This document shows positions 13,903 through 41,965 of a stretch of 64,000 bases of DNA, piece by piece. Source of the DNA: Nocardioides agri. GTDB taxonomy: Bacteria > Actinomycetota > Actinomycetes > Propionibacteriales > Nocardioidaceae. Under the pieces are notes generated by a model. That model had not been told where the DNA came from. It made no database searches and was given only the letters and a program-made list of their open reading frames with translations. Location of the stretch: NCBI RefSeq assembly GCF_013778305.1, contig NZ_JACEIC010000002.1, forward strand, positions 2,009,669 to 2,073,668. Direction: 5' to 3'. Position numbers and translations under genes: made by a program. The stretch's first letter is position 1, and each line of letters opens with the position of its first letter.

Positions 13903-13990
13903 GTTTCATCAAGGGATGACGGTGAACCCGCGCTTCCCTGGACGAGCTCGTCGAGGGAAGCGCGGCTCGAACCGCATCCCTTGATGAAAC
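13903..13990. repeat. 88-bp nested palindrome between the AtuA and acyl-CoA dehydrogenase genes
   Basis: Outer arms GTTTCATCAAGGGATG (13903-13918) and CATCCCTTGATGAAAC (13975-13990) are perfect over 16 bp. Inner arms CGCGCTTCCCT (13929-13939) and AGGGAAGCGCG (13954-13964) are perfect over 11 bp. The centre is a 12-bp palindrome, GACGAGCTCGTC (13941-13952). The unpaired bulges both contain GAACC. The RNA would fold into one long three-tier hairpin. It lies inside the operon, after the AtuA stop by 36 nt, and could stabilise mRNA ends or attenuate transcription. Confidence 0.85.
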
Positions 13991-27895: not shown

Positions 27896-27933
27896 CGGGC
27901 CCTGTCGGTGGGGCCGCTCGGTTGGCTCTGTCG

Positions 27934-27996
27934 GTTTCACCGGTGCACCGGTGAAACTGTCACTTCTCGGCCGTTGCAACGCCTGAGAAGTGACAG
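27934..27996. repeat. double-hairpin repeat element, copy 1 (convergent gap)
   Basis: First hairpin: a perfect 24-bp palindrome at 27934-27957, half-arm GTTTCACCGGTG. Second: CTGTCACTTCTC (27957-27968) and GAGAAGTGACAG (27985-27996), 12 bp, with a 16-nt loop containing GTTGCAAC. The tail repeats GCCTGAGGAGTG (28001-28012). Between the stops of the MerR and PPOX genes, so it can serve both as terminator. A second copy is at 41880-41944. Confidence 0.85.
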
Positions 27997-28019
27997 GAAC
28001 GCCTGAGGAGTGCCGGCCG

Positions 28020-28463
28020 CTAGCCGCTGGGCCGCATCGTCAGCCAGGGCCGGTCGAGCCGGAACCTGCGGCCGGTGACCTCGGCGGGCACGATCTCGAC
28101 CACGTCGTACTTCGGCGTGCCGACCCACGGCCGCAGCGGCAGGGTCTCGGCCCGGTGCTCCTCGTCCTCACCGAGGTGGCGGGCGTGGCCGCGCACGACC
28201 ACGCTGACCGCGGTCTCGCCGGCGAAGTCGTCGATCTCGAAGGCCACCTCGGCCCCGATCTCGACGGCGAGGAGCTTGGCGCCGGGTGCGGTGCGGAAGA
28301 GGAGGGTCTGGTTGCCCAGCGCGTCGCGGTCGACGGCGTAGTTGATCGGGGTGATGTGCTGCTCGTCGACCACCGTGAACGCGAGCCGGCCGAACTCGTG
28401 CTCGCCCAGCAGCTCCCAGCACTCCTCCGGGGTCAGCTCCACGACCGGTGACTCGTCGTTCAT
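28020..28463 (-). CDS. pyridoxamine 5'-phosphate oxidase family protein (flavin-binding split barrel)
   Basis: 147 aa. The order TPEECWELLGEHEFGRLAFTVVDEQHITPINYAVD, then LLFRTAPGAKL and SVVVRGHARHL, is that of the small PPOX/F420-dependent split-barrel group widespread in actinobacteria. It probably binds FMN or F420 and reduces an unknown small molecule. CAGTCT at 28470-28475 (minus) ends 6 nt before the ATG. It converges with the MerR gene across the double-hairpin element and diverges from the SDR gene. Confidence 0.8.
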   Translation of the reverse strand: MNDESPVVELTPEECWELLGEHEFGRLAFTVVDEQHITPINYAVDRDALGNQTLLFRTAPGAKLLAVEIGAEVAFEIDDFAGETAVSVVVRGHARHLGEDEEHRAETLPLRPWVGTPKYDVVEIVPAEVTGRRFRLDRPWLTMRPSG

Positions 28464-28535
28464 CCGTCCAGACTGTCAGAGCCGGCTCCCGCGGGCGAGA
28501 GTCGATGGTCCCGGGTTCGGGTACGTTCACGAGCA

Positions 28536-29456
28536 ATGGACGACGACGAGCAGCTCCGGGTCCTGGTGGCCGGCGCGACGGGGTTCGTGGGGCGCCATCT
28601 CGTCCCCGCCCTGATCGAGCGCGGCGACCGCGTGCGCGCCATGACCCGTCGGCCCGAGTCGTACGACGGGCCGGCGGACGCCGTCGGTGGGGACGTCTCG
28701 GACGCCGGCAGCCTGGCCGAGGCGCTGACCGACATCGACGTCGCCGTCTACCTCGTGCACTCGCTGGCCGAGGACGACTTCGAGCGCAAGGACGCCGAGG
28801 CGGCGCGAGGCTTCGGCCTCGCGTGCGCGGCGACCGGGGTGCGGCAGATCGTCTACCTCGGCGGGCTCGGTCGCGACGACGACGACCTGTCCTCGCACCT
28901 GCGATCGCGGCGCGAGGTCGAGCGGCTGCTCGGCGAGGCCGGGGTCCCGGTGACGACGCTGCGCGCGGCAGTCGTCGTCGGCGCCGGCGGCATCTCCTGG
29001 GAGATCACCCGCCAGCTGGTGCACAACCTCCCGGCGATGGTGGTCCCCAAGTGGGCGACGACCCTCTCGCAGCCCATCGCGCTCGACGACGTGGTCCGCT
29101 ACCTCGTCGGCGTGATCGGCACCGAGGCGGCGTACGCGCGGACGTTCGAGGTCGGCGGCCCGGAGCAGCTGACCTACATCGAGATGATGCAGCAGGCCAG
29201 CGAGCAGATGACCGGTCACCGGCTCCCGATCCTCACCGCGCCGGTGCTGACGCCGGAGCTCTCGTCCTACTGGATCGCGACCGTGACCGACGTCGACGTC
29301 ACCACGGGGCGCAACCTCATCGAGTCGATGCGCACCGAGGTCGTCGTCACCGACGACTCGATCCGCGAGCTCGTGCCCGGTGAGCCGCTGACGTACGCCG
29401 AGGCCGTGCGGCGCGCGCTAGAACAGGCGCGGCAGGGCGAGCAGCAGGACGACTGA
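28536..29456 (+). CDS. NAD(P)H-binding SDR-type protein (atypical, NmrA/NDUFA9-like)
   Basis: 306 aa. Begins LRVLVAGATGFVGRHLVPALIERG, the G-x-x-G-x-x-G dinucleotide motif of extended/atypical SDRs, and has VRQIVYLGGLG and VEVGGPEQLTYIEMM typical of the YbjT/NDUFA9-like group. The canonical Tyr-x3-Lys is not obvious, so a binding or isomerase role is as likely as a dehydrogenase. TACGTT at 28522-28527 ends 8 nt before the ATG. Its last 39 bp overlap the convergent CPBP protease gene. Confidence 0.8.
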   Translation: MDDDEQLRVLVAGATGFVGRHLVPALIERGDRVRAMTRRPESYDGPADAVGGDVSDAGSLAEALTDIDVAVYLVHSLAEDDFERKDAEAARGFGLACAATGVRQIVYLGGLGRDDDDLSSHLRSRREVERLLGEAGVPVTTLRAAVVVGAGGISWEITRQLVHNLPAMVVPKWATTLSQPIALDDVVRYLVGVIGTEAAYARTFEVGGPEQLTYIEMMQQASEQMTGHRLPILTAPVLTPELSSYWIATVTDVDVTTGRNLIESMRTEVVVTDDSIRELVPGEPLTYAEAVRRALEQARQGEQQDD

Positions 29457-30008
29457 CCAGGTCGCGTGCACCAGGCAGGGGGCGACCACCCCGCCGCTGT
29501 GCCGCCGGGCCGCCGCGGCCACCAGGCCGAGCAGCACCGAGGCGAAGACCAGCATCACGTTGCCGGTGGCCACGGTGACGACGGCGTAGACGAGGGTGGT
29601 CGCCAGCACCGGCCGCGGCAGGGCGTCGTAGAGCGCGCCGCGGAAGTAGAGCTCCTCGGACAGCCCGGTCACGACCGCGACCAGCACGACCAGCGGCCCC
29701 GAGCCGCGGTCGGCGTACGCCGTCACCGCGCCGACCGCGTCGTCGAGCGCCGGGATCTCGCGGACCACCAGGGCGCCGACGACGAAGACCGCACCGAGAG
29801 CGAGACCGACGAGGACCGGTCGCACCGGCGAGCGGTCACCGAAGGTCGGCGGCCCGGCGAGCAGTGCGCCGCCGGCCCAGACGGCCGCGAGCGCGAGCGC
29901 CGCGGGGTAGAACCAGACGGTCCCGGGCTCGATGCGCAGCGAGACGCCGAGCAGCACCGTGCCGAGCACGAGGGTGGTCACCAGCACCACCCGACGTCGG
30001 TCCCCCAC
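29418..30008 (-). CDS. CPBP family intramembrane metalloprotease
   Basis: 196 aa, about six hydrophobic segments. Contains the family signature SEELYFRGAL (Glu-Glu-x3-Arg) and the later GGVVAPCLVHATWSV histidine motif. CPBP (CAAX prenyl protease 2/Abi-like) proteins are membrane-embedded proteases. The role here is unknown; some members give bacteriocin self-immunity. GTG at 30008 is preferred over an upstream reading from 30038. The 3' end overlaps the SDR gene by 39 bp on the opposite strand. Confidence 0.82.
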   Translation of the reverse strand: MGDRRRVVLVTTLVLGTVLLGVSLRIEPGTVWFYPAALALAAVWAGGALLAGPPTFGDRSPVRPVLVGLALGAVFVVGALVVREIPALDDAVGAVTAYADRGSGPLVVLVAVVTGLSEELYFRGALYDALPRPVLATTLVYAVVTVATGNVMLVFASVLLGLVAAAARRHSGGVVAPCLVHATWSVVLLLALPRLF

Positions 30009-30040
30009 GCGCCGACTGTACGGCGCGTGGGGGCACACGA

Positions 30041-31546
30041 TCAGCGGCGGCCGGTGCTGAAGGAGGACGCGCTGTGGCGGGACTGCCCGCCACCGGAGGA
30101 CTGTGCCGAGCCGCCGGCACGCCGGCGCGAGCCGCCGTTGCCGCCGCCGGACTTCGGCGCGCCGGAGCGCCCCTGACCGCCGGACTTCGCCTGGCCACCG
30201 CCGGAGCGGCCCTGGCCGCCGGTCGTGGCCTGACCGCCGCTGCGGCCACCGCCGCTCGAGCGGCGACCGCCGCCGGAGCGCCGGCCACCGCCGCCACCGG
30301 TGCGGCCCTGGCTCTGGGCCGGGGCCTCGACGACGAGGCCGCCGGGCAGGGTCCGCTCGCCGGGAGCGAGCTCGGCGAGCAGCGGGTGGCCCGCGCCGTT
30401 GATCTTCGTGGTCGTCGGCTTGATGCCGGCGGCGCGCGTCAGGTCGCGGACGTCACGCACCTGGTCGTCGGTCATCAACGTGATGACCGTGCCCTTGGCA
30501 CCGGCGCGCGCCGTACGGCCGGAGCGGTGCAGGTAGGCCTTGTGCTCGACCGGCGGGTCGGCGTGCACGACCAGCGACACGTCGTCGACGTGGATGCCGC
30601 GGGCGGCGATGTCGGTCGCGACCAGCGTGGTGGCGCGGCCGGAGTGGAAGGCCTCCATGTTGCGGGTCCGGGCGTTCTGGCTGAGGTTGCCGTGCAGCTC
30701 GACCGTCGGCACGCCGTTGCTGTTGAGCTGGCGGGTGAGCGCCTTGGCGCCGTGCTTGGTGCGCGTGAAGACGACCGTGCGCCCCGGCGCGCTGACCAGG
30801 TCGGTCAGCACGGAGACGCGGTGCTCGCGCGCCAGGTGCAGGACGTGGTGGTCCATGGTCGCGACCGGCGACTGCGCCGAGTCGGCCTGGTGGGTCACCG
30901 GGTTCTGCAGGAAGCGCTTCACGAGCACGTCGATCGCGCGGTCCAGGGTGGCCGAGAACAGCAGCCGCTGGCCGCTGCGCGGGGTCTGGTCCATGATCCG
31001 GCGGACGCCGGGCAGGAAGCCGAGGTCGGCCATGTGGTCGGCCTCGTCCAGGATCGTGATCTCGACCTGGCTGAGGTCGCAGTGGCCCTGGCCGATCAGG
31101 TCCTCGAGCCGGCCGGGGCAGGCGAGCACGATGTCGGCGCCCTTGCGGAGGCCCTGGACCTGCGGGTTCTGGCCCACGCCGCCGAAGATCGTCTGGGTGG
31201 TGAGGCCGGCCGTCGCGGCCAGCGGCTTCAACGAGTCGTTGATCTGGTTGACGAGCTCGCGCGTCGGGGCCAGGACCAGGGCGCGCGGCTTGCGCGCCTG
31301 GGCCGGCCGCCCGGAGGCGGAGAGGCGGGCGACCAGCGGCAGCAGGAACGCGTAGGTCTTGCCGGAGCCGGTGCGGCCGCGGCCGAGCACGTCGCGACCC
31401 GCGAGCGAGTCGGGCAGCGTGGCGGCCTGGATGGGGGTCGGGGTGGAGATGCCGAGGTCCGCGAGGACGGCGGCAAGGGAAGCGGGGACGCCGAGATCGG
31501 CGAAGCCCGCAGCAGACACTGCAGTGGACAAGAGAAGATCACTCAC
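30041..31546 (-). CDS. DEAD-box RNA helicase with Gly/Ser/Arg-rich tail
   Basis: 501 aa, GTG start at 31546. All core motifs are present: Q motif STPTPIQ, motif I GRTGSGKT, Ia PTRELVNQI, II ILDEADHMAD, III FSATLD, V ATDIAARGI and VI HRSGRTARAG. From about residue 395 the tail is a low-complexity Gly-Ser-Arg-Gln region with many GG-R/S repeats, suited to RNA binding or condensate formation. It resembles RhlE-type helicases that act in rRNA or mRNA remodelling at low temperature. There is no Shine-Dalgarno. A chain of four hairpins occupies the leader just upstream, which suggests RNA-level control. Confidence 0.9.
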   Translation of the reverse strand: MSDLLLSTAVSAAGFADLGVPASLAAVLADLGISTPTPIQAATLPDSLAGRDVLGRGRTGSGKTYAFLLPLVARLSASGRPAQARKPRALVLAPTRELVNQINDSLKPLAATAGLTTQTIFGGVGQNPQVQGLRKGADIVLACPGRLEDLIGQGHCDLSQVEITILDEADHMADLGFLPGVRRIMDQTPRSGQRLLFSATLDRAIDVLVKRFLQNPVTHQADSAQSPVATMDHHVLHLAREHRVSVLTDLVSAPGRTVVFTRTKHGAKALTRQLNSNGVPTVELHGNLSQNARTRNMEAFHSGRATTLVATDIAARGIHVDDVSLVVHADPPVEHKAYLHRSGRTARAGAKGTVITLMTDDQVRDVRDLTRAAGIKPTTTKINGAGHPLLAELAPGERTLPGGLVVEAPAQSQGRTGGGGGRRSGGGRRSSGGGRSGGQATTGGQGRSGGGQAKSGGQGRSGAPKSGGGNGGSRRRAGGSAQSSGGGQSRHSASSFSTGRR

Positions 31547-31548
31547 TG

Positions 31549-31635
31549 TTGGCGTGTCTCGCCAAGCTGAACCCACCGGTGGGTGGGAGCGGAGAAGCTG
31601 CCTCACGATGTGAGGGGCGCGATCCCCGAGGGATC
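31549..31635 (-). promoter_or_regulatory. hairpin-rich 5' leader of the DEAD-box helicase mRNA
   Basis: Four short perfect stems lie in series just before the GTG at 31546: TTGGCG/CGCCAA (31549-31554, 31560-31565), the palindrome ACCCACCGGTGGGT (31571-31584), CCTCAC/GTGAGG (31601-31606, 31610-31615) and GATCCC/GGGATC (31621-31626, 31630-31635). The first sits 2 nt from the start codon, where a ribosome would load. A cis-regulatory RNA, for example cold- or helicase-responsive, is inferred. Confidence 0.5.
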
Positions 31636-31659
31636 GGCCGAAGCCCGAGGCAAGACTGA

Positions 31660-31696
31660 ACGGGCTGCTCCCGCAAGCCTAGTGGGAGCAGCCCGT
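31660..31696 (-). terminator. intrinsic terminator of the csbD gene
   Basis: ACGGGCTGCTCCC (31660-31672) and GGGAGCAGCCCGT (31684-31696) pair perfectly over 13 bp with an 11-nt loop. On the minus strand the stem is followed by TTCAGTCTT, a weak U-rich tract. It lies 32 nt after the csbD stop. Confidence 0.75.
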
Positions 31697-31728
31697 CAGA
31701 CCTGCATCGACACGGTGTGACGTTGGAC

Positions 31729-31923
31729 CTACGGGGTGATGCCGTCCTTGACGTCCTTGGCGGCGTCCTTGACGTGCTCGCCCGCGTCCTTGACCTTCGA
31801 CGAGGTCTGGTCGGCCTTGCCCTCGGCCTCGAGGCTCTCGTCGCCGGTGGCCTTGCCCGCCGACTCCTTGCCCTGGCCCTTGAGGTTCTCGACCTTGTTC
31901 TCTGCCTTGTCCTTCAGTCCCAT
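31729..31923 (-). CDS. CsbD family stress-response protein
   Basis: 64 aa. MGLKDKAENKVENLKGQGKE begins with the CsbD-like pattern of Lys/Glu/Ala-rich, Gly-spaced segments (ESAGKATGDESLEAEGKADQ), highly hydrophilic and probably disordered or helical. The CsbD family is induced by general stress in Bacillus; the molecular role is unknown. The ATG is chosen by GAGGAGG 5 nt upstream (31929-31935), the clearest Shine-Dalgarno here; an in-frame ATG eight codons further upstream lacks one. Confidence 0.85.
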   Translation of the reverse strand: MGLKDKAENKVENLKGQGKESAGKATGDESLEAEGKADQTSSKVKDAGEHVKDAAKDVKDGITP

Positions 31924-31965
31924 GTCTACCTCCTCGTTGTAGCCCATGGGTGTCCGATCGAGGGG

Positions 31966-33402
31966 TCAGGCAAACCTCAGGACGCCGTCGTCGATGGCCT
32001 CGCGGCGGATCGTGCGGACGTCGGTGAGGTAGTTCTGCTTCAGCTGCCACGGCGCCCGGTCGCCCTGGACGGGGACGGCGTCGAGCGCGCGGAGGACGTA
32101 GCCGGACGAGAAGTCCATGAACGGCCGCTCCCCCACGCTCGGGTCACGCTCGGCCAGCACCTGGCGGTAGCCGTGCTCGTCCATGTGGCGCAGCAGCCGG
32201 ACGACGTACTCGGTGACGAGGTCGGCCTTGAGGGTCCAGGACGCGTTGGTGTAGCCGATCGTGAAGGCGAAGTTGGGGACGCCGCTGAGCATCAGGGCCT
32301 TGTACGACATGGTGTCGTGGGCCTTCACCTCGGCGCCGTCGACGCTGAGCGTGATGCCGCCGAAGGCGAGCACCTTGAGGCCCGTGGCCGTGACGATGAT
32401 GTCGGCCTCGAGCTGCTCGCCCGACGTCAGCCGGATCCCGGTCTCGGTGAAGGTGTCGATCGTGTCGGTGACGATCGAGGCGGTGCCGTGCCGCAGCGCG
32501 CGGAAGAGGTCCCCGTCGGGCACCAGGCAGAGCCGCTGGTCCCAGGGGTCGTACGTCGGCTTGAAGTGCGTGTCGACGTCGATCTCCGGCGGCAGCAGCT
32601 TGATCGTCGCCTTGCGGATGAAGTTGCGCAGCACGTCGGGCCGCTTGCGACTGACCTGGTAGCTGGCCATCGCGAGCAGGATGCTCTTCCAGCGCACGAT
32701 CGGGTAGGAGATCCGCTCGGGCAGGCGGCTCAGTCGCTGCGCGATGGGGTCGCGGCCCGGCGCGGAGAGGATGTACGTCGGCGAGCGCTGCAGCATCGTC
32801 ACGTGTGCGGCGTCCTCGGCCATCGCCGGCACCAGCGTCACCGCGGTCGCGCCGCTGCCGATCACGACGACCCGCTTGCCGGCGTAGTCGAGGTCCTCGG
32901 GCCAGTGCTGCGGGTGGATCACCTGGCCGCGGAAGTCGTCCTGGCCGGGGAAGCGCGGCGCGTAGCCCTGCTCGTAGTCGTAGTAGCCGGTGCAGCCGAG
33001 CAGGAAGCCGGCCGTGAGCTGCCGTGGCCCGTCGGGGGTCTCCACCTGGACCGTCCAGCGCGCGTCCGCGCTGCTCCAGTCGACCCGGACGACCCGGTGG
33101 CCGTAGCGGATCAGCCGGTCCACGCCGTACTCCTGGGCGACGTCGCGGACGTACTGGAGGATCGACGGACCGTCCGCCAGCGCCTTCTGGCCGCGCCAGG
33201 GCCGCCAGCGGTAGCCGAGCGTGAACATGTCGGAGTCGGAGCGGACGCCCGGGTAGCGGAAGAGGTCCCAGGTGCCGCCGCTCACCGCCCGCGCCTCCAG
33301 CACCGCGAGGGTGCGGTGCGGGTGCTGCTGGCGGAGCTGGGCCGCGGCGCCGATGCCCGAGAGGCCGGCACCGACGACGAGGACGTCCACGTGCTCAGTC
33401 AC
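31966..33402 (-). CDS. ethA: FAD-containing Baeyer-Villiger-type monooxygenase, EthA-like
   Basis: 478 aa, GTG start. The N-terminal DVLVVGAGLSGIGAA binds FAD; GGTWDLFRYPGVRSDSDM and IHPQHWPEDLDY with a second dinucleotide motif VVVIGSGATAV bind NADPH. These and the C-terminal NYLTDVRTIRREAIDDGVLRFA-type end (last residues IDDGVLRFA) closely resemble M. tuberculosis EthA as I remember it. EthA oxygenates ketones and activates thioamide drugs. No ethR-like repressor is adjacent. TAAGGT at 33409-33414 (minus) ends 6 nt before the GTG. Confidence 0.88.
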   Translation of the reverse strand: MTEHVDVLVVGAGLSGIGAAAQLRQQHPHRTLAVLEARAVSGGTWDLFRYPGVRSDSDMFTLGYRWRPWRGQKALADGPSILQYVRDVAQEYGVDRLIRYGHRVVRVDWSSADARWTVQVETPDGPRQLTAGFLLGCTGYYDYEQGYAPRFPGQDDFRGQVIHPQHWPEDLDYAGKRVVVIGSGATAVTLVPAMAEDAAHVTMLQRSPTYILSAPGRDPIAQRLSRLPERISYPIVRWKSILLAMASYQVSRKRPDVLRNFIRKATIKLLPPEIDVDTHFKPTYDPWDQRLCLVPDGDLFRALRHGTASIVTDTIDTFTETGIRLTSGEQLEADIIVTATGLKVLAFGGITLSVDGAEVKAHDTMSYKALMLSGVPNFAFTIGYTNASWTLKADLVTEYVVRLLRHMDEHGYRQVLAERDPSVGERPFMDFSSGYVLRALDAVPVQGDRAPWQLKQNYLTDVRTIRREAIDDGVLRFA

Positions 33403-33425
33403 CCGGCCACCTTACTGAATATCTG

Positions 33426-34160
33426 TCAACAGGAGAAGAGCTCCACGAACCGCGCCAGCAGGCGCGTCGGGTGCTCGACGTGGCTGGCCCGGGCCATCTC
33501 CATCAGCGCCTCAGCCTGCTCGGGCGGGTCGAAGTAGCCGTGGTGGCGGTAGGTGTCGATGCGCAGCACGAGCCCGTCGATGTCGAGCTCAGGGTGGAAC
33601 TGCGTGGCGTAGACGTTGTCGCCGAGCCGGAAGGCGTGCACCGGGCAGTCGGCGCTCGACGCCAGCAGCACCGCGCCGGCCGGCAGCCGGCGGACCGCCT
33701 CCTTGTGCCCGAGGAACGCGTCGAACGTCGGCGGCATCGTGCCGAGCAGCCGGTCCGCGCGACCGGCGTCGGTGAGGGTGATCTCGCGAGCGGAGATCGG
33801 CTCGGCGTGGTGGCGGTCGACGACGCCGCCCCGCAGGGTGCCGAGCACGCCGATGCCGTAGCAGGCACCGAGGAACGGGAAGTCGGCGTCGACCACCCGG
33901 GTCGCCAGGTCGTGGAGCTCCGCCTCGGCCCGCAGCTGGGCGGCGCTCTTGCGCTCCGCCGGGTCGCTCACGTTGAACGGCCCGCCCCCGAGGATGATCC
34001 CCGACCAGTCCGCGAGGTCGACCGGCCCGAGCGGGTCGCGCTCGAGCCGGACCCGGCGTACGTCCCTCTCGTCGAGGCCGGCGCACCGCAGCACCGCGGC
34101 GTACTCGCTGTCCGCCGCGGCGTCCTCGGCCCGGGTGCCGAGGAAGAGGAAGGGCTTCAT
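33426..34160 (-). CDS. type 1 glutamine amidotransferase domain protein
   Basis: 244 aa, a stand-alone class I GATase. The nucleophile elbow is FPFLGACYGIGVLG (Cys in GACYG), and the catalytic His-x-Glu is in YATQFHPELD. It has no synthetase partner next to it, as in the GuaA-like/YfeJ-type proteins that hydrolyse glutamine or gamma-glutamyl compounds. The role is unknown. It lies 24 nt after the CaiB stop on the same strand and might be co-transcribed. Confidence 0.82.
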   Translation of the reverse strand: MKPFLFLGTRAEDAAADSEYAAVLRCAGLDERDVRRVRLERDPLGPVDLADWSGIILGGGPFNVSDPAERKSAAQLRAEAELHDLATRVVDADFPFLGACYGIGVLGTLRGGVVDRHHAEPISAREITLTDAGRADRLLGTMPPTFDAFLGHKEAVRRLPAGAVLLASSADCPVHAFRLGDNVYATQFHPELDIDGLVLRIDTYRHHGYFDPPEQAEALMEMARASHVEHPTRLLARFVELFSC

Positions 34161-34184
34161 GCCCTCATCCTCACGCCCGCGCCC

Positions 34185-35351: not shown

Positions 35352-35358
35352 GCCTCGC

Positions 35359-35387
35359 ATCATGACAGAAGTGCTGTCACGGTCGAG
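35359..35387 (-). promoter_or_regulatory. MerR-type operator/promoter of the CaiB gene (site 2)
   Basis: TGACA (35363-35367) and TGTCA (35375-35379) form the same inverted repeat with a 7-nt spacer as at fadA. On the minus strand CTCGAC (35387-35382) and CATGAT (35364-35359) are placed as -35 and -10 with 17 nt between. Aligned in the direction of transcription, sites 1 and 2 share 22 of 31 bases. Confidence 0.6.
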
Positions 35388-35403
35388 GGGCTGCGGGCCG
35401 TCG

Positions 35404-35470
35404 CCCGTCGTCCCTGACCCCAGCGTCGTGGTTCCGCCGGATTGACGACGCTGGGGTCAGGTACGACGGG
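35404..35470 (-). terminator. long hairpin directly after the ABC ATPase stop codon
   Basis: CCTGACCCCAGCGTCGT (35413-35429) pairs perfectly with ACGACGCTGGGGTCAGG (35445-35461). An outer 8-bp pair, CCCGTCGT/ACGACGGG, continues past one mismatch, giving 25 paired bp with a 15-nt loop. It starts 3 nt after the stop at 35474 and separates the ABC operon from the CaiB promoter. Confidence 0.7.
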
Positions 35471-35473
35471 ACA

Positions 35474-36208
35474 TCAGGCCGGCAGCACCCGGCGCAGGAA
35501 CTGTCGGGTCCGCTCCTCGCGGGGCGCGCTGAAGATCTCGGCGGGCGGGCCCTGCTCGAGGATCCGGCCGCGGTCGAGGAAGCAGACCGAGGTGGCGACG
35601 TCGCGGGCGAAGGCCATCTCGTGGGTGGCGAGGACCATCGTCATCCCGGCCTCGGCCTCCGCGCGGACGATCTCCAGCACCTCGCCGACCAGCTCGGGGT
35701 CGAGGGCGGCGGTGATCTCGTCGAGGAGCAGCAGGGTCGGGGAGGTGCACATCGCGCGCACCAGCGCGACCCGCTGCTGCTGGCCGCCGGAGAGCCGGTC
35801 GGGGTGCTTGGCGGCGTGCTCCGAGAGCCCGAAGCGCTCGAGCAGCAACAGCGCCCGCGCCTCCGCCTCCGCCCGCGGTACGCCGTGGACGCGGCGCGGG
35901 GCGAGCGTGCAGTTCTCGAGGACGCTCAGGTGCGGGAAGAGGTTGTAGGCCTGGAACACCATGCCCATCCGCGACCGCACCTCGCGCGGGTCGACCCGCG
36001 GGTCGGAGATCTCCCGGCCCTCGAAGGTGATGACGCCGTCGTCGATGTCCTCGAGGAGGTTGAGGCAGCGCAGCAGCGTCGACTTGCCGGAGCCGGACGA
36101 GCCGATCAGGCAGATGACGTCGTGCGGCTCGACGGTCAGCGACACGTCGTCGAGCACCAGGCGGTCGCCGTAGGACTTCCGCAGGCCGGAGACGGACAGC
36201 AGGCTCAC
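35474..36208 (-). CDS. polar amino-acid ABC transporter ATP-binding protein (GlnQ type)
   Basis: 244 aa. Walker A GSSGSGKST, the Q-loop, the signature LSGGQQQR, Walker B LLLLDEITAAL and the switch His in LATHEM are all present. The 'DEITAALDPE' form is the PAAT (glutamine/histidine/arginine) class. ATP hydrolysis drives uptake through the adjacent permease. Its ATG overlaps the permease stop by 4 bp. It is the last gene of a three-gene operon read from 37943. Confidence 0.93.
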   Translation of the reverse strand: MSLLSVSGLRKSYGDRLVLDDVSLTVEPHDVICLIGSSGSGKSTLLRCLNLLEDIDDGVITFEGREISDPRVDPREVRSRMGMVFQAYNLFPHLSVLENCTLAPRRVHGVPRAEAEARALLLLERFGLSEHAAKHPDRLSGGQQQRVALVRAMCTSPTLLLLDEITAALDPELVGEVLEIVRAEAEAGMTMVLATHEMAFARDVATSVCFLDRGRILEQGPPAEIFSAPREERTRQFLRRVLPA

Positions 36209-37053
36209 AGCGCACCCGCCAGCTCACGTCGCCGCATTCGCGCGGTCAGCCAGTCGCAGAGCCGCGCGAGCGGCACGGTCATCACGATGAAGAAGCACGA
36301 CACCACGACCAGCGGGGTGTAGTTGAAGTTGTAGTTGCCGTAGTCGCGGGCCACGAAGACCGCCTCGAACACGGCCGCCGCCGACGCGAGCGCGGTGTCC
36401 TTCTGGAGCGACACGAAGTCGTTGAGCAGCGGCGGTACGACCCGGCGCACGCCCTGCGGGACGACCACGTGCCGCAGGGTCTGGCCGCGGGTCAGCCCCA
36501 GCGCCTGCGCGCTCGCCCACTGCGACGGGTGCACGGACTCGATGCCGGAGCGGAACACCTCGGCGACGTAGGCGCTGTAGGAGATGATCAGCGCCACCGT
36601 CGCCCACACGTACGCGCTGTTCGTGACGCCCTGCAGCCGCAGGGCGGGCACGCCGAAGGCGAGCAGGTAGACGAGCAGGATGGTCGGGATGCCGCGGACG
36701 ACGTCGGTGTAGACGACGGCGGTGGCGCGCAGGGGCGCCAGCCACGGCGAGCGGCTGACCCGGGCGAGCGCGATCAGCATCGCGAACGGCAGGATGACCG
36801 CCTCGGCGATCAGGAACATCTTGATGTTCAGCCAGATGGCGTCCCAGATGTCCGGGAGCGCCTCGCGGGCGTCGTCCCAGTTGAAGAACAGCTCCTGCAC
36901 GCTGGGCCACCCGGGCGAGCCGGTGACGACCAGTGCCGCGGCGACGAAGACCAGGACGGTCATCACCGTCGCGATCAGCGCCGACCGCGTCCGGAGCCGC
37001 CGGCGCAGCCGCCGGCGGTCCAGCTCGTGCTGGCTGGGGGTCCAGTCGCTCAC
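36205..37053 (-). CDS. polar amino-acid ABC transporter permease
   Basis: 282 aa. A basic cytoplasmic N-terminus with RRRLRRRLRTRSAL leads to a first membrane helix (IATVMTVLVFVAAALVV), and the BPD_transp_1 core begins near residue 65. The EAA-like loop reads VHPSQWASAQALGLTRGQ, which contacts the ATPase. VYTDVVRGIPTILLVYLLAF is a typical PAAT permease segment. Only one permease gene is present, so a homodimer is likely. It overlaps both neighbours by 4 bp. Confidence 0.92.
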   Translation of the reverse strand: MSDWTPSQHELDRRRLRRRLRTRSALIATVMTVLVFVAAALVVTGSPGWPSVQELFFNWDDAREALPDIWDAIWLNIKMFLIAEAVILPFAMLIALARVSRSPWLAPLRATAVVYTDVVRGIPTILLVYLLAFGVPALRLQGVTNSAYVWATVALIISYSAYVAEVFRSGIESVHPSQWASAQALGLTRGQTLRHVVVPQGVRRVVPPLLNDFVSLQKDTALASAAAVFEAVFVARDYGNYNFNYTPLVVVSCFFIVMTVPLARLCDWLTARMRRRELAGAL

Positions 37054-37943
37054 TGGAGCTCAGGCACGCCCACGGTGTCGGAGAGCCACTCCTGCTCGAT
37101 CGCGTCGAGCGAGCCGTCCTCCCGGAGCGCGGCCAGCGCCTGGTTGACGCAGTCGACGAGACCGCTGCCCTTCTCGAAGAGCATGCCGAACTCCTCCTGC
37201 TCCCCGGTCTCCGGCTGGAACTGGCCGACGATCGTGCTCTTCGGGATCTCCACCGCCGAGATGTAGAAGGCGGTCGGGAGGTCGGCGAGGATCGCGTCGA
37301 CCTGGTCGTTCTGGAGCGCCTGCTTCGCGCCGTTGGTGTCCTCGAACACGACCGGGTCGGTCTCCGGCTGGATGATGTCGCGGATCGCGGTGAGCGAGGT
37401 GGTGCCGGTCTGGGCGCCGAGGCGGAGGCCCGTGAGGTCGTCGAGGCTGGCGGCCTCCGCGCCCTTGGTGCCCTTGAGCGCGATGACGGCCTGCGCGGCG
37501 GAGTAGTAGCCGTCGGAGAAGTCCACGACCTCGGCGCGCTCGGGCGTGATCGAGATCTGGTTGATGTCGAAGTCGAAGTCCTTCGGACCCGGCGCGTAGG
37601 ACTTGTTGAACGGCACCTTCACCCAGGTCACCTGGTCGGCGCTGAAGCCGAGCTGCTCGGCGACGGCGTAGGCCACGGCGGACTCGAAGCCCTTGCCGTT
37701 GGCCGGGTCGTTGTCGACGAACCACGGCTCGTACGCCGGGGAGTCGGTGCCGACCGTCAGCTGGCCGGCCGTCCGCAGCGGAAGCGAGTCGGTCGCGCAC
37801 GCGTCGGCGGACTCGCTGGCGCTGGTCGACGCGGCCGGGTCGGACGCGGTCGAGGAGTCGTCCCCCTCCTCCGGGGCGCACGCGGCGACGGCGAGGGCGA
37901 AGGGCAGGACGGCCGCAGCGGCCAGGGCACGACGTACACGCAT
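37050..37943 (-). CDS. polar amino-acid ABC transporter substrate-binding lipoprotein
   Basis: 297 aa. The signal peptide ends in the lipobox LAVAAC (Cys22), giving a lipid-anchored protein. A low-complexity Ser/Ala linker precedes the SBP_bac_3 domain: LTVGTDSPAYEPWFVDN, GFESAVAYAVAEQLGF, and GAQTGTTSLTAI for ligand contacts. It binds a polar amino acid or similar compound and delivers it to the permease. TACGCT at 37950-37955 (minus) ends 6 nt before the ATG, so the operon starts here. Confidence 0.92.
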   Translation of the reverse strand: MRVRRALAAAAVLPFALAVAACAPEEGDDSSTASDPAASTSASESADACATDSLPLRTAGQLTVGTDSPAYEPWFVDNDPANGKGFESAVAYAVAEQLGFSADQVTWVKVPFNKSYAPGPKDFDFDINQISITPERAEVVDFSDGYYSAAQAVIALKGTKGAEAASLDDLTGLRLGAQTGTTSLTAIRDIIQPETDPVVFEDTNGAKQALQNDQVDAILADLPTAFYISAVEIPKSTIVGQFQPETGEQEEFGMLFEKGSGLVDCVNQALAALREDGSLDAIEQEWLSDTVGVPELQ

Positions 37944-37964
37944 GGGAGAAGCGTAGAGCCGCGC

Positions 37965-38420
37965 TCAGTGCTGGTGGTGCGCCGCGTGCGTCTGGTGGAC
38001 GACGGCGTGACCGCGGCCACGTCCGATCATCCAGTGGTTGACCGGCACGGTGACCACGAACGCGACAGCGAGGGCGGCCGCGAGCGAGACCCAGAAGAGG
38101 CCGTCGGCCAGGGTGGCGGCCATGGCGCCGGGCACCAGCAGCAGGAACGCGTTGTCGACCACCTCCATCACCAGGATCGACACGGTGTCCGCGGCGAGCG
38201 CCACCTTGACCGCCGCTCGGAGGTCCAGCCCGGCACGCCGCTGACCGACGAAGGTCAGCAGGTAGCCGAAGAAGAATGCCAGTGCGACGGCCAGCGCGAT
38301 CGCGGCCGCGTCGTGCCAGCCCCACCAGGTCGCGAGCACCATGCCCAGCACCTCACCGATGGCACAGCCCGTCAGGCAGTGCCGGGTCGCCGTGATCGCC
38401 ATCCGCCAGCTCGAGTCCAT
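37965..38420 (-). CDS. DUF4396 membrane protein with His-rich tail, probably copper-regulated
   Basis: 151 aa. About four hydrophobic helices, beginning with TRHCLTGCAIGEVLG (paired Cys in a conserved position), and with AADTVSILVMEVVDNAF in the middle. The C-terminus is rich in histidine (GHAVVHQTHAAHHQH), a plausible metal site. DUF4396 has no assigned function. The gene is preceded by TAGGGT (38428-38433, minus), 7 nt before the ATG, overlapping a CsoR-type operator. That suggests induction by copper and a role in copper handling (inference). It is divergent from a lipoprotein peptidase. Confidence 0.75.
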   Translation of the reverse strand: MDSSWRMAITATRHCLTGCAIGEVLGMVLATWWGWHDAAAIALAVALAFFFGYLLTFVGQRRAGLDLRAAVKVALAADTVSILVMEVVDNAFLLLVPGAMAATLADGLFWVSLAAALAVAFVVTVPVNHWMIGRGRGHAVVHQTHAAHHQH

Positions 38421-38432
38421 GCGTCTCACCCT

Positions 38433-38449
38433 ATACCCCCTAGGGGTAT
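38433..38449. promoter_or_regulatory. CsoR-type (copper) operator
   Basis: ATACCCCCTAGGGGTAT has a perfect CCCCTAGGGG core flanked by ATAC/GTAT, which fits the G/C-tract operators bound by copper-sensing CsoR proteins in actinobacteria. It overlaps the -10-like TAGGGT of the DUF4396 gene and lies 21 bp before the M28 peptidase start on the other strand, so it could repress both. Confidence 0.65.
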
Positions 38450-38469
38450 CTGCCAAGTACCGTCGAGCC

Positions 38470-39405
38470 ATGCGTCGCGCGCTCGTCGCCTCCCTCGTCG
38501 TCCTGACGGCGGGGTGCACCGACGCGCCCACCGCCGATCCCCCCGACCCCGCCGCACCGGTGACGACGGCCTCCGCCACCCCCACCACCGCCGCCGACCC
38601 GGAACCGGTGCCGGCGCGCGAGTTCGAGGCGGCTCGCGCGCTGCGCACCGTCCGCCACCTGGCCGGCCGGATCGGTCCGCGGCTGGCCACCGGACCGGCG
38701 TTCCGCGGGGCAGCGGCGTACGTCGGCGACGCGCTCGCCGACCTCGGCTACGTCGTGCGCCGACAGCCCGTCGCGGTGCCGGCGGGCGACTCGTGGGGGG
38801 TGCCGGTCAAGGCTGGCCGGTCGAGCAACGTGATCGCGACGCCCGCCGACTTCGACCCGGCCGCGCCGTGGCTGCTCGTCGGCGCCCACCTCGACACGGT
38901 CGCGGTGGCGCCGGGGGCGGAGGACAACGCGTCCGGGGTCGCGGTGCTGCTCGAGCTCGCGCGGGTGCTGGGCGGTCGAGGCCAGGTGGTGCTGGTCGCG
39001 TTCGGAGCGGAGGAGCCGCGTGGTCCGGGCGATCTCCACCACTTCGGGTCGAAGCGCTATGTCGCCGCGCTCGACGACGACGAGGGCGTCCACCTGCGCG
39101 GCATGGTCTCCCTCGACCGGGTCGGCGTCGGCGCGGTCGTGCCGCTCTCGTCGGTCGCGGGCACGCCCAGCGCACTGCGGGACCGGCTCGCGCGGGTCGC
39201 CGAGCGGGCCGGCGTCCCGCACCGGGTCGAGACCGACGCGGCGAGCGACCACGAGTCGTTCGCGGACGCCGGCTTCCTCGCCGCACGCATCGGCAGCACG
39301 CCGTACGCCGGCTACCACTCGGCGGCCGACGTGCCCGCCGTGGTCGACCCGCGTCAGCTCCACCGCGTGGGTGAGCTGCTCAGCGCGTGGCTGCGAGCGA
39401 GCTGA
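38470..39405 (+). CDS. M28 family zinc aminopeptidase-like lipoprotein
   Basis: 311 aa. Signal peptide with lipobox LTAGC (Cys17), a Pro/Thr-rich linker, then an M28 domain. Metal-binding segments are VGAHLDTVAV (His, Asp), AEDNASGVAVLLELAR (Asp), FGAEEPRG (Glu-Glu) and DAASDHESFADAG (Asp-His). It would be an extracytoplasmic, membrane-anchored peptidase removing N-terminal residues. TACCGT at 38458-38463 ends 6 nt before the ATG. Its 3' end overlaps the CapA-like gene by 26 bp on the other strand. Confidence 0.85.
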   Translation: MRRALVASLVVLTAGCTDAPTADPPDPAAPVTTASATPTTAADPEPVPAREFEAARALRTVRHLAGRIGPRLATGPAFRGAAAYVGDALADLGYVVRRQPVAVPAGDSWGVPVKAGRSSNVIATPADFDPAAPWLLVGAHLDTVAVAPGAEDNASGVAVLLELARVLGGRGQVVLVAFGAEEPRGPGDLHHFGSKRYVAALDDDEGVHLRGMVSLDRVGVGAVVPLSSVAGTPSALRDRLARVAERAGVPHRVETDAASDHESFADAGFLAARIGSTPYAGYHSAADVPAVVDPRQLHRVGELLSAWLRAS

Positions 39406-40738
39406 GCTCCCAGAAGGGGTCGAGGATCGAGGCCGCCTTCGCGAGGGGGACGACCCGCGGCGCGAGGTCGGCGCCCATCCGGTAGGGCACGAAGTCGGCG
39501 GCGACCACGCGGCCGCCGGAGAAGGTCGCCTCGAGCACCAGCCCCTCGCGGGTCTGCGGCTCGGTCATGTCGAAGGTGAAGTTGCCGAGCGAGTGCACGA
39601 CCAGCGCGTCACCGATCTGCTCGGCGCCCTGGACCCAGTGGGGATGGCCGCCGACCACGAGGTCCGCGCCGGCGCGGACCAGCTCCCGCGCCACCTGGTG
39701 CTGGATCGGGTCGGGGCGGTGGGTGTACTGCGTGCCCCAGTGCGGCAGCACCACGACCGCGTCGACCCGCCGCGAGAGGCGGCGCACGTCGGCGAGCACC
39801 CGGTCGAGCTCGGCCCGGTCGAGCGGGCCGGTGCGCGGCGGCATGCTCACGGACACCGCGCCCGGCTGCCCGGGCGCGGCCTCGGGCGTCTCGCCGATCG
39901 CGTTGAAGCCGAGGAGCCCGAACCGGACGCCGTCGCGCTCCAGCACCACCGGACGTCGGGCCTCGGCGAGGTCGCGGCCGGCCCCGAAGGTCGGCAGGCC
40001 GCCCGCCCGCAGCCGGTCGACCGTCTGGACGAGCGCGCGGTCGCCGTAGTCGCCGGCGTGGTTGTTGGCGAGGCTGAGCGCGTCGAACCCGGCGGCGCGC
40101 AGGTCGCGGCGCACGGCCGGCGGGGCGTGGAAGGAGTCGCCGCCCTGGGTCGGCTCGCCGTCGTCCGACAGCGTGCTCTCGAGGTTGCCGACCGTGATGT
40201 CCGCGCTCGCCAGCCGCTCGCTCATCGGTGCGAGCACCGGCAGCCCGGTCACCCGGCGCCCGAGCATGATGTCCCCGACGATCGTCACCGTCGTGACCTC
40301 GGCCGGCGGCGGACCCTGGACCTGGATCGGGTACGCCGCGGGGTCGCGCACGGGGTCGACGCCGTCGACGGTCGCCATCCGGACCGCCGGTGTCGCGGCC
40401 TCGGCGACCACGACCGCGACCGTGTCCATCGGCAGGTGCGCGAGGTCCCCGGTGCGGTCGTCGACCCGCAGCCGGCCGGACGGCTGGCCCAGCTCGCGCC
40501 AGTTCGTGATCTCGCCACGCTGGAGCCGGCGCGCCTGCTCGGCGGTCAGGGCCAGCGCCGGCCGGCGGGCGTTGACCGCGAAGCCCAGCGGCCGGGTGGA
40601 CGGCGCGAGCGCGGTGGCTGACGGCGACGGCATGGCCGCCGGGCCGTCGGTGAACGCCCGGTCGACCGGCGCCTCGTCGCCGTCGTCGGTGCACCCGGCG
40701 AGCGCGAGCACGAGCACGCACCCGACCAGGAGCCTCAT
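39380..40738 (-). CDS. CapA/PgsA-like metallophosphatase family lipoprotein
   Basis: 452 aa. Lipoprotein signal LVLALAGC (Cys16). Residues 20-150 form an N-terminal domain resembling a phosphate- or PBP-like region (NARRPALALTAEQARRLQRG). From about 160 the PGA_cap domain: VTIVGDIMLGRRVTG, NLESTLSDDG, LANNHAGDYGD, VLPHWGTQYTH and VVGGHPHWVQG, all metal-ligand motifs. CapA-like proteins act in poly-gamma-glutamate export or as envelope phosphatases. TACCCT (40746-40751, minus) ends 7 nt before the ATG and overlaps the divergent promoter of the PatB gene. Confidence 0.85.
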   Translation of the reverse strand: MRLLVGCVLVLALAGCTDDGDEAPVDRAFTDGPAAMPSPSATALAPSTRPLGFAVNARRPALALTAEQARRLQRGEITNWRELGQPSGRLRVDDRTGDLAHLPMDTVAVVVAEAATPAVRMATVDGVDPVRDPAAYPIQVQGPPPAEVTTVTIVGDIMLGRRVTGLPVLAPMSERLASADITVGNLESTLSDDGEPTQGGDSFHAPPAVRRDLRAAGFDALSLANNHAGDYGDRALVQTVDRLRAGGLPTFGAGRDLAEARRPVVLERDGVRFGLLGFNAIGETPEAAPGQPGAVSVSMPPRTGPLDRAELDRVLADVRRLSRRVDAVVVLPHWGTQYTHRPDPIQHQVARELVRAGADLVVGGHPHWVQGAEQIGDALVVHSLGNFTFDMTEPQTREGLVLEATFSGGRVVAADFVPYRMGADLAPRVVPLAKAASILDPFWELSSLAATR

Positions 40739-40745
40739 GCCGTCA

Positions 40746-40755
40746 AGGGTAGGTT
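40746..40755. promoter_or_regulatory. overlapping divergent -10 elements of capA-like and patB-like genes
   Basis: TAGGTT (40750-40755, plus) ends 6 nt before the patB-like GTG; TACCCT (minus, 40751-40746) ends 7 nt before the capA-like ATG. The two hexamers overlap by 2 bp in the 23-bp gap, so only one RNA polymerase can open the DNA at a time. Confidence 0.55.
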
Positions 40756-40761
40756 GCCAGC

Positions 40762-41877
40762 GTGATCCGCGATCTCAGCGACGACGAGGCCCGCGCCGCA
40801 CTGCCGCTCAAGTGGGAGGCCTCCGGCGTGGTCCCCGCGTGGGTCGCGGAGATGGACTACCTCCAGGCCGAGCCGGTCACCGAGGCGCTCGTCGACGCCG
40901 TACGCCGCGGCGCCCTGGGCTACCCGCCGCACGGCGACGACCTCGGGGCCGCGTTCTCCGGCTTCGCGGCCCGCCACTGGGGCTGGGAGGTGCCGGCCGC
41001 GGCGTCGGTCGCGACCGGCGGCGTGATGAGCGGGATCCGACTGGCGCTCGAGGTGCTCTGCCCGCCCGGACCGGTCGTGGTGCCGATGCCCTGCTACCCG
41101 CCCTTCCGCGACGTCGTCACGGTGATCGGCCGCGAGATCGTGCCGGTCCACCTCGACCCGGACGGCGACGGCCGCCTCGACCTGGCCGCGGTCTCGCGGG
41201 CGTTCGCGGCCGGCGCCCGGACGCTGCTGCTCTGCAACCCGCACAACCCGCTCGGCCAGGTGCCGTCGCACGGGGAGCTGGCGGCGCTCGCCGCGCTCGC
41301 CCACGAGTACGACGCCCGCGTGGTCAGCGACGAGATCCACGCGCCGCTGGTGCTGTCGGGCGCGACGTTCACGCCGTACCTCTCGGTCGACGACCGCGGG
41401 ATCCTCGTGACCAGCCCGTCGAAGGCGTTCAACATGCCGGCGACCCACGGCGCGCAGGTCGTCTCGCTGCAGCCGGACGACCACGCCCGCCTCGCCACGG
41501 TGCCGGTGCCCGCGCAGAACACCTGGTCCAGCCTCGGCGTCGTCGCCGGGATCGTGGCGTGGCGCGACTGCGACGAGTGGCTGGCCGCCCTGCGCCAGCG
41601 GCTCTCCGCCCAGCGCGCGCTGCTGACCGACCTGCTCGCCGACCGGCTGCCGAAGGCGCGGATGCGCCCGCTGGAGGCGACCTACCTGGCCTGGCTGGAC
41701 CTGCGCGGGTACGGCGTCGCCGACCCGGCCGCCGCCGCGCTCGACCACGGCGTCCGCGTCGCGCCGGGCCACGACTACCTGGCCGGCCTCGAGGGGCACG
41801 TGCGCATCAACATCGCCACCAGCCCCGACCGGCTGGAGCGGGTGGTGGACGGGTTGGCGCGGGCGGTGGGCGGCTGA
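40762..41877 (+). CDS. PLP-dependent aminotransferase, MalY/PatB type (cystathionine beta-lyase-like)
   Basis: 371 aa, GTG start. PLP Lys221 in TSPSKAFNMPA, and the fold-type I segments LLLCNPHNPLGQVPSHGEL and VVSDEIHAPLVL. The N-terminal PLKWEASGVVPAWVAEMDY matches C-S lyases (PatB/MalY) rather than general aminotransferases. It would cleave cystathionine or cysteine S-conjugates to a thiol, pyruvate and ammonia. A regulatory role like E. coli MalY cannot be excluded. Its stop is followed at once by the second double-hairpin element. Confidence 0.87.
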   Translation: MIRDLSDDEARAALPLKWEASGVVPAWVAEMDYLQAEPVTEALVDAVRRGALGYPPHGDDLGAAFSGFAARHWGWEVPAAASVATGGVMSGIRLALEVLCPPGPVVVPMPCYPPFRDVVTVIGREIVPVHLDPDGDGRLDLAAVSRAFAAGARTLLLCNPHNPLGQVPSHGELAALAALAHEYDARVVSDEIHAPLVLSGATFTPYLSVDDRGILVTSPSKAFNMPATHGAQVVSLQPDDHARLATVPVPAQNTWSSLGVVAGIVAWRDCDEWLAALRQRLSAQRALLTDLLADRLPKARMRPLEATYLAWLDLRGYGVADPAAAALDHGVRVAPGHDYLAGLEGHVRINIATSPDRLERVVDGLARAVGG

Positions 41878-41879
41878 CG

Positions 41880-41944
41880 CGGGATCACCGGTGCACCGGT
41901 GATCCCGTCACTTCTCAGGGGTTGCAACGGCCGAGAAGTGACAG
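41880..41944. repeat. double-hairpin repeat element, copy 2 (convergent gap)
   Basis: First hairpin: a perfect 28-bp palindrome at 41880-41907, half-arm CGGGATCACCGGTG. Second: GTCACTTCTC (41907-41916) and GAGAAGTGAC (41933-41942) with a 16-nt loop containing GTTGCAAC. The tail has GCCTGAGGAGTG, as in copy 1. The outer bases differ from copy 1 (GGGAT versus TTT) but still pair, which is compensatory change. It lies between two convergent stop codons. Confidence 0.85.
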
Positions 41945-41965
41945 GAGAGCCTGAGGAGTGACGCC

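Follow-up and report, generated by a model that had tools for sequence, protein, structure and literature searches.

The two double-hairpin elements in the analysed window, a stretch of 64,000 nucleotides from Nocardioides agri, are probably (roughly two chances in three) terminal inverted repeats of a transposase-less, REPtron-like unit that have been dispersed by the nuclease which this unit encodes. Both are members of one repeat family (family A), whose element is 81 bp long and consists of a palindrome H1, a palindrome H2 and a half-site T (Table 1). A pattern search returned 21 copies in this genome, and a reversed control pattern gave 0 matches. In RNA folding the window copies reached z values of -5.5 and -6.6, and 0 of 200 shuffles folded as well. 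The window copies are thus not a product of chance. The original prediction of a dispersed, REP-like and probably mobile family, which hung on there being more than just two copies in the genome, is supported by the copy number and by presence and absence between relatives at the first site.

The double hairpins were found as they had been described, with H2 arms TCACTTCTC/GAGAAGTGA and tail GCCTGAGGAGTG in both copies, and the gene calls place each of them in a gap between convergent genes. No Rfam family matched the window at gathering scores, and a tRNA search of the window found none.

Table 1. Coordinates of repeat elements and neighbouring genes in the window.
Feature	Position	Strand	Basis and remarks
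Family A element copy 1 (H1-H2-T)	27931..28011	+	Covariance model, cmsearch 104.8 bits, E 1.5e-23; in 21-copy alignment A2
H1 palindrome, copy 1	27932..27959	+	Alignment columns 2-29; arms GTTTCACCGGTG/CACCGGTGAAAC at 27934-27957
H2 palindrome, copy 1	27960..27993	+	Alignment columns 30-63; centre GTTGCAAC
T half-site, copy 1	28001..28011	+	Columns 71-81; direct repeat of H2 3' arm
Family A element copy 2 (H1-H2-T)	41879..41959	+	Covariance model, cmsearch 99.3 bits, E 3.2e-22
H1 palindrome, copy 2	41880..41907	+	Alignment columns 2-29; arms CGGGATCACCGGTG/CACCGGTGATCCCG
H2 palindrome, copy 2	41908..41941	+	Columns 30-63; compared with copy 1, partly flipped in its inner section
T half-site, copy 2	41949..41959	+	Alignment columns 71-81
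Gene converging on copy 1	27170..27895	+	Codon-usage gene caller; by eye presumably a MerR-type regulator
Gene converging on copy 1, opposite side	28020..28463	-	Codon-usage gene caller
Gene converging on copy 2	40762..41877	+	Codon-usage gene caller; by eye presumably a PLP-dependent aminotransferase
Gene converging on copy 2, opposite side	41966..43294	-	Codon-usage gene caller; by eye presumably a beta-glucosidase
Family B element	13903..13990	+	Genome C2:2023571-2023658; inverted GTTTCATCAAGGGATG half-sites around inner hairpin; RNA-folding z -11.1

Two of the 21 family A copies form an inverted pair around a gene for a predicted AbiEi-nuclease protein. Such units measure about 1.2-1.3 kb and consist of a repeat in the order H1-H2-T with H1 outermost, the gene (product about 310-330 residues) and a second, inverted copy of this repeat. 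Of 80 named nuclease genes, 77 have inverted repeats on their two sides, compared to 4 among 276 control genes taken from these loci. When flank pairs were shifted as a further control, 0 of 151 scored above 39. Units outside the genus behaved alike (11 of 12 loci with inverted repeats). In one set, inverted pairs were present at 28 of 30 loci and missing from L221 and L244; the 28 include L239 and L240, which reach a contig end and carry the pair. Grouped by neighbourhood, the 78 unit loci form 28 clusters. The covariance model detected the family in 91 of 118 Nocardioides congeners; 6 of these 91 element-positive genomes had no gene match at 1e-20, and among the 103 gene-positive genomes 18 had no element match (association across genomes, Fisher p 0.001). 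Repeat sequence is strongly divergent between species, and the two ends of one unit match. Paralogous units that share a genome have diverged far from one another, which means that whole units have not multiplied recently. The reading frame for the family A nuclease is interrupted by in-frame stops in this genome, and hence family A may now be inactive here. Movement of the repeats was not observed, and no clean insertion junction was found. Visual inspection of unit ends and of 20 doublets showed no target-site duplication, and the unit protein had no plasmid match at 1e-15. A partner toxin gene was not seen beside the two units of this genome or at further loci viewed non-systematically.

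The unit protein is predicted to combine an AbiEi-antitoxin fold (residues 10-200) with a nuclease domain resembling Vsr and I-Bth0305I (residues 205-318). The predicted structure has a pLDDT of 94.9. In a fold search its nuclease part matched 3r3p (Z 10.0, rmsd 2.2 over 97 of 97 residues) and 1cw0, and its N-terminal part matched 6y8q (Z 10.2, 173 residues, rmsd 6.1). Pfam AbiEi_4 was found in 21 of 27 unit proteins. Searches of Pfam, NCBIfam and PADLOC with the protein returned AbiEi alone and no nuclease fold, and a profile search against solved structures gave nothing significant (best E 0.25). The nuclease assignment comes from the fold search with the predicted structure. Residues E208, D241, E252, D254 and K258 do not vary among the 80 proteins compared, and the reading frames are open in all 80. 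Residue 253 is F, V or I, at what we take, by eye, to be the place where the H of the EDxHD pattern is expected.

Compensatory changes in the stems of the two window copies had originally been read as covariation and as a sign of selection on structure. From the copies in this genome alone that reading did not hold, since 53 of 500 shuffles gave at least as many doubly changed cells as the 21 copies, whereas across species it was strongly supported, with stem covariation at 24 of 27 pairs. Within the genome, stem pairs are broken at two variable positions in 7 and 5 of the 21 copies. The T half-site covaries with the 5' arm of H2 across species (11 of 11 pairs). Orientation of H1 and T is constant, and the H2 hairpin occurs in both orientations. 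Relative to H1/T, flipped H2 fitted better in 14 of 28 units and direct H2 in 3, with 11 ties (row L160 was left out of this count). Both orientations would be expected if H2 were processed as a hairpin.

This genome contains a second nuclease unit, to which a scattered family of its own (family B) belongs, with 69 half-sites and 0 in the control. Both units are flanked by their own repeat type, and dispersed copies of that type accompany each. In another actinomycete family (genus g48) the scattered copies are gene-less versions of the unit, 153-207 bp long. Over all 139 rows, with 2 overlapping matches set aside, neighbouring g48 matches faced inward (+-) in 27 of 27 cases and in no other orientation; 25 of these pairs have 2-181 bp between them and 2 are at unit length. 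Twenty doublets inspected as sequence were gene-less units. The unit of the own genome was the best match for 21 of 40 dispersed copies (permutation p 0.0002). This test included both units found in G052 and in G070 and left out L259 (G001), L283 and L284 (G024), for which no same-genome copy or unit was in the test. The other 19 of 40 copies were closer to another genome's unit than to the unit found in their own, among them every copy tested from G011 (6), G052 (5) and G070 (3), and by this measure orphan repeat families exist. By genome, the own unit ranked first in 10 of 17 and not in 7.

Species-specific presence is seen at the first window site. In G010 the gene ends abut and the site is empty, and in G008 a different element is present. 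At the second site no clean empty site was found; G008 alone keeps both neighbour genes, and it carries an orthologous family A element with compensatory stem changes. G000, G008 and G010 share an inverted pair at the gene, which was considered as a recent transposition; this was rejected because the three are a single orthologous locus, and mobility is accordingly argued from other loci.

We propose that the N-terminal half of the protein recognises the H2/T sites that belong to its family. The nuclease would nick or cut at the repeat, probably folded as a hairpin or cruciform, and repair would leave new gene-less copies elsewhere. Such copies would persist mostly in the gaps that follow gene 3' ends, convergent gaps above all, and may in addition terminate transcripts there. 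The repeats are perhaps widespread 3'-end structures in actinomycete transcripts.

Among the alternatives, an ordinary transposase could move the repeats in trans, with the AbiEi-nuclease gene as a passenger or as an addiction or defence gene. The role of the protein rests on a predicted activity, orphan families occur in genomes where no matching unit was found, and AbiEi-type proteins are known in defence systems (PADLOC matches), all of which would fit. We nevertheless regard this explanation as unlikely. The gene is a constant partner of the repeats within and beyond the genus, and repeat similarity tracks protein similarity, most with the N-terminal half (Spearman 0.35 versus 0.17 for the C-terminal half). 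Furthermore, Y1_Tnp is absent from the genome, in a transposase screen that covered Y1 alone.

Still less probable is an autoregulated, immobile regulon, with the repeats bound by an AbiEi-like regulator. This would agree with the predicted AbiEi fold at the N terminus and with T and H2 acting as repeated half-sites that change together. However, copies lie at gene 3' ends rather than at promoters: of the 42 sites of families A and B, 26 are in convergent, 15 in tandem and 1 in divergent gaps, and 0 are within genes. The gene-less whole-unit copies in g48 also speak against a regulon, which would leave the conserved nuclease residues unexplained.

It is very improbable that the elements are just bidirectional intrinsic terminators of convergent genes, alike by resemblance. 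The hairpins are strong, and 13 of the 21 gaps holding family A are convergent, compared to 12 of 125 baseline gene pairs. A terminator, however, does not need 81 bp of near-identical sequence including T, and it would account neither for repeats that bracket a gene in inverted orientation nor for a site that is empty or differently filled in relatives. A terminator role may exist on top of mobility. Classical REPs spread by a RAYT (Y1 HUH transposase) would share the size, the hairpins, the extragenic placement and the single enzyme gene per repeat type, but such an enzyme was rejected for this genome and the explanation is scarcely credible, given that PF01797 had 0 matches here while 5 of 14 control genomes were positive, that the flanked gene encodes a different predicted fold, and that no GTAG (or CGTC) tag was read by eye in the 21-copy family A consensus.

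With the predicted nuclease gene bracketed by this kind of repeat, the unit resembles a type of bacterial mobile DNA that has not been described before. Whether it constitutes a new class is, in our judgement, evenly balanced: under that reading an AbiEi-Vsr nuclease, either selfish or domesticated, would place copies of its hairpin repeats around the chromosome via a folded-hairpin intermediate, without a known transposase, recombinase or reverse transcriptase. It would be a nuclease counterpart of RAYT/REP of independent origin spread over the actinomycetes. Among the titles and abstracts retrieved from open-licence PMC papers there was no description of this repeat-nuclease system, and that literature yielded no paper joining DUF559, inverted repeats and mobility. 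Should the nuclease be what spreads the repeats, REP-like elements evolved at least 2 times with unrelated enzymes, and the units would be a candidate source for small hairpin repeats in genomes lacking RAYT. Nucleases flanked by such repeats are now searchable. Across many species the units pair a protein with a recognition sequence, which should help in studying DNA reading by the AbiEi-type domain; they also supply a group of predicted site-directed nucleases.

Compared with known systems, the gene-less units with terminal inverted repeats resemble MITEs, from which they may differ in that no parent DDE transposase was identified, in a transposase screen that covered Y1, and in the target-site duplications not seen by eye. 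The unit protein shares its N-terminal fold and the AbiEi_4 profile with the AbiEi antitoxin of the AbiE system, to which it adds a nuclease domain. With Vsr-like (EDxHD) homing endonucleases such as I-Bth0305I it shares the predicted catalytic fold (3r3p). The EDxHD homing endonucleases outlined in PMC12350094 and PMC5718144 are located in introns and inteins, whereas the gene described here is enclosed by an inverted pair of hairpin repeats that also occur as scattered gene-less copies, and its product has an AbiEi-like N-terminal domain. The closest parallel may be drawn from accounts of REP/REPIN elements as short palindromic extragenic repeats, single or in inverted doublets and placed for the most part in convergent or unidirectional gaps, and of REPtrons as repeat-flanked enzyme genes, usually one per repeat type, with several types per genome (PMC3116915, PMC6006769, PMC8266576, PMC3733652). 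Our repeats are likewise extragenic and mostly in convergent or tandem gaps, both units carry their own repeat type with dispersed copies, and orphan families appear in other genomes. The differences are that REPtrons have a Y1 HUH transposase and a GTAG/CGTC tag, whereas the enzyme here is a predicted AbiEi-fold protein with a Vsr-like nuclease, and its untagged repeat is a two-palindrome element of actinomycetes.

Both double-hairpin copies that the original prediction had placed in the window were found as described. They belong to family A, an 81-bp element composed of palindrome H1, palindrome H2 and a half-site T, with 21 copies in this genome (4.79 Mb, 5 contigs). Searches for H1 (≤2 mismatches) and H2 (≤3 mismatches) each gave 21 matches, all coinciding at a fixed spacing, while reversed control patterns of H1 and H2 gave none in the same genome. 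Aligned together, the 21 copies span 81 columns with no gap. The two window copies had RNA folding energies of -42.6 kcal/mol (z -5.5) and -44.9 kcal/mol (z -6.6), and none of 200 shuffles folded as well. At E ≤ 0.001 the family A model matched at least 91 of 118 Nocardioides genomes (weakest genome 7e-4; up to 39 candidates per genome were scored).

Hairpin elements in the window
Element	Position	Strand	Basis	Remark
Family A copy 1	27931-28011	+	covariance model	
Family A copy 2	41879-41959	+	covariance model	
Family B element	13903-13990		inverted GTTTCATCAAGGGATG half-sites	third hairpin element, absent from the original prediction; family of the second nuclease unit

Of the 21 copies, two form an inverted pair 1.1 kb apart with one gene between them. 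The corresponding protein of the relative G008 found matches at 1e-20 in 103 of 118 genomes. Among the 30 loci listed, family A model matches lay on both sides of the gene in 24, on one side in 4 and on neither in 2, where the inverted arrangement was visible by eye. For Nocardioides and Marmoricola, the best 80 of 237 named loci were taken: the reading frame was open in all 80, and the 400-bp gene flanks aligned as inverted repeats in 77. Control genes (600-1500 bp, same loci) had such flanks in 4 of 276 cases, and none of 151 shifted flank pairs scored above 39. The exceptions were L158 (at a contig end), L184 and L192. In 69 of the 80 loci the own flank pair exceeded the 99th percentile of between-locus pairs, thus the two ends of one unit are more alike than the ends of other units. 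Clustering by neighbourhood divided the 78 unit loci flanked by genes on each side into 28 groups. In a class-wide sample of 394 genomes, homologues at 1e-40 occurred in at least 96 genomes and at least 42 of 137 genera (scoring was limited to 5 candidates per genome). Inverted flanking repeats were present in 28 of the 30 class-wide loci listed and in 11 of the 12 of those outside the genus, where the sequences are quite different, yet a palindrome and repeated half-sites recur. A further 13 of 15 paralogous units had inverted flanking repeats, a figure without a separate control.

The predicted structure of the unit protein (pLDDT 94.9, pTM 0.91) has two parts. Residues 10-200 resemble 6y8q, an AbiEi antitoxin (Z 10.2, rmsd 6.1, 173 residues; Foldseek E 2e-5). 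Residues 205-318 resemble 3r3p, the I-Bth0305I homing endonuclease catalytic domain (Z 10.0, rmsd 2.2, 97/97; Foldseek E 0.03), with lower scores for 3hrl (Z 9.6) and for Vsr (1cw0, Z 7.2). Pfam assigned AbiEi_4 alone, in 21 of 27 unit proteins. All 80 proteins carry E208, D241, E252, D254 and K258 unchanged, which fits a predicted metal-dependent nuclease but is no proof of activity. In the window's genome (G000) the frame of the family A nuclease (L107, C2:2254795-2255733) is interrupted by in-frame stops; relatives have it open. The family B gene of the window's genome is open.

Compensatory stem changes had been proposed from the two window copies. This does not hold among the 21 copies of the genome, where pairing is lost in 7 and in 5 copies at the two variable stem positions, and the doubly-changed count was reached by 53 of 500 shuffles. 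Between species the claim stands: in an alignment of 54 repeats taken from 39 nuclease loci (MAFFT, 81 columns, no gaps) 24 of 27 pairs changed on both sides, 88% of cells were paired, and none of 500 shuffles reached any of the covariation measures. These repeats were chosen with a structure-bearing model, which biases the test towards that structure; a sliding control gave 32-48% pairing and does not account for the result. T covaries with the H2 5' arm in 11 of 11 pairs, and is therefore a third copy of the same half-site.

Family B, the repeat family of the second nuclease unit of the window's genome (C1:548139-549029), has a different repeat from family A. There are 69 occurrences of its half-site genome-wide (control 0), and the examined loci (30 half-sites, 21 clusters) are mostly 88-bp inverted doublets with an inner hairpin. 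Half-sites or elements repeated in tandem about every 62 bp were seen at G000 C2:2157658-2157991 and in its relative G010 at C25:291634-291891. In genus g48 of another actinomycete family (f23), the repeat of one unit had 55, 27 and 19 matches in G172, G189 and G204; G000, G010, G026 and G029 had none. Among all 139 matches, 27 neighbouring pairs within 1.3 kb faced inward and none was otherwise oriented; 2-181 bp separated 25 pairs and a unit length the other two. With the nearer right end as the boundary, the 20 doublets examined are 153-207 bp long and represent units lacking the gene. Four G172 doublets near contig ends (L388, L389, L393, L397) share a sequence of ~80 bp directly after TGATC at the right repeat end, perhaps an insertion sequence targeting repeat ends.

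When 40 dispersed copies from 17 genomes were compared with the repeats of the unit set, the own genome's unit was the best match in 21 (permutation p 0.0002, relatedness ignored). The failures are non-random. All tested copies of G011 (6), G052 (5) and G070 (3) matched another genome's unit better, as did single copies of G002, G009, G010 and G123 and one of five of G069; the G010 copy was closest to the unit of its close relative G000. Hence orphan families exist, or units are absent from the set. Repeat similarity correlates with protein similarity in 77 units (Mantel p 0.001), the coefficient being higher with the N-terminal half (0.35) than with the nuclease half (0.17), and common ancestry of gene and repeat adds to this correlation.

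In G010 the first window site has no element: the two gene ends abut, with 10 bp between the two matches. The corresponding gap of G008 holds a different element, which resembles family B. The second site is occupied in G008 by an orthologous family A element with compensatory H1-stem changes. Thus some copies are old and shared and others species-specific. Divergence was too high for an exact junction. In L353 (G021) the orthologue of the 41966-43294 gene is directly followed by a tandem repeat GGTTCACGCCGACTCGGCACC. Family A gaps (both unit ends counted) were convergent in 13 cases, tandem in 7 and divergent in 1, and the 21 family B clusters examined were convergent in 13 and tandem in 8, against 12 convergent of 125 gene pairs in the same loci (Fisher p 4e-7 for each family; own gene caller, gap size unmatched, two overlapping loci counted twice). 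Units lay between convergent genes in 62 of 78 cases versus 42 of 316.

We propose that the N-terminal half would recognise the T/H2 half-sites, that the nuclease domain would cut or nick at the repeat, and that repair or replication would then leave repeat copies elsewhere. H2 (27960-27993 and 41908-41941 in the window copies) is often flipped, H1 and T are not: the family A inner sequence occurs in 11 copies and its exact reverse complement in 3, and between left and right H2 of 28 units the flipped comparison was better in 14, the direct one in 3, with 11 ties, one mis-offset row being excluded. The flipping suggests that H2 is processed as a hairpin, but recombination within the palindrome could have the same effect. 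Selection would account for the survival of copies mainly at gene 3' ends, and they may also act as terminators.

In the open-licence literature searched, no mobile or REP-like element had an AbiEi-Vsr nuclease as its sole protein. The nuclease system is not classed as a REPtron, because the defining enzyme of REPtrons was searched for in the window's genome and not found. REPtrons are described as consisting of a gene flanked by its own repeats, with scattered copies and convergent gaps (PMC6006769, PMC8266576, PMC3733652, PMC3116915). The nuclease units likewise have a repeat-flanked gene, scattered copies and convergent gaps, and the system probably works like a REPtron.
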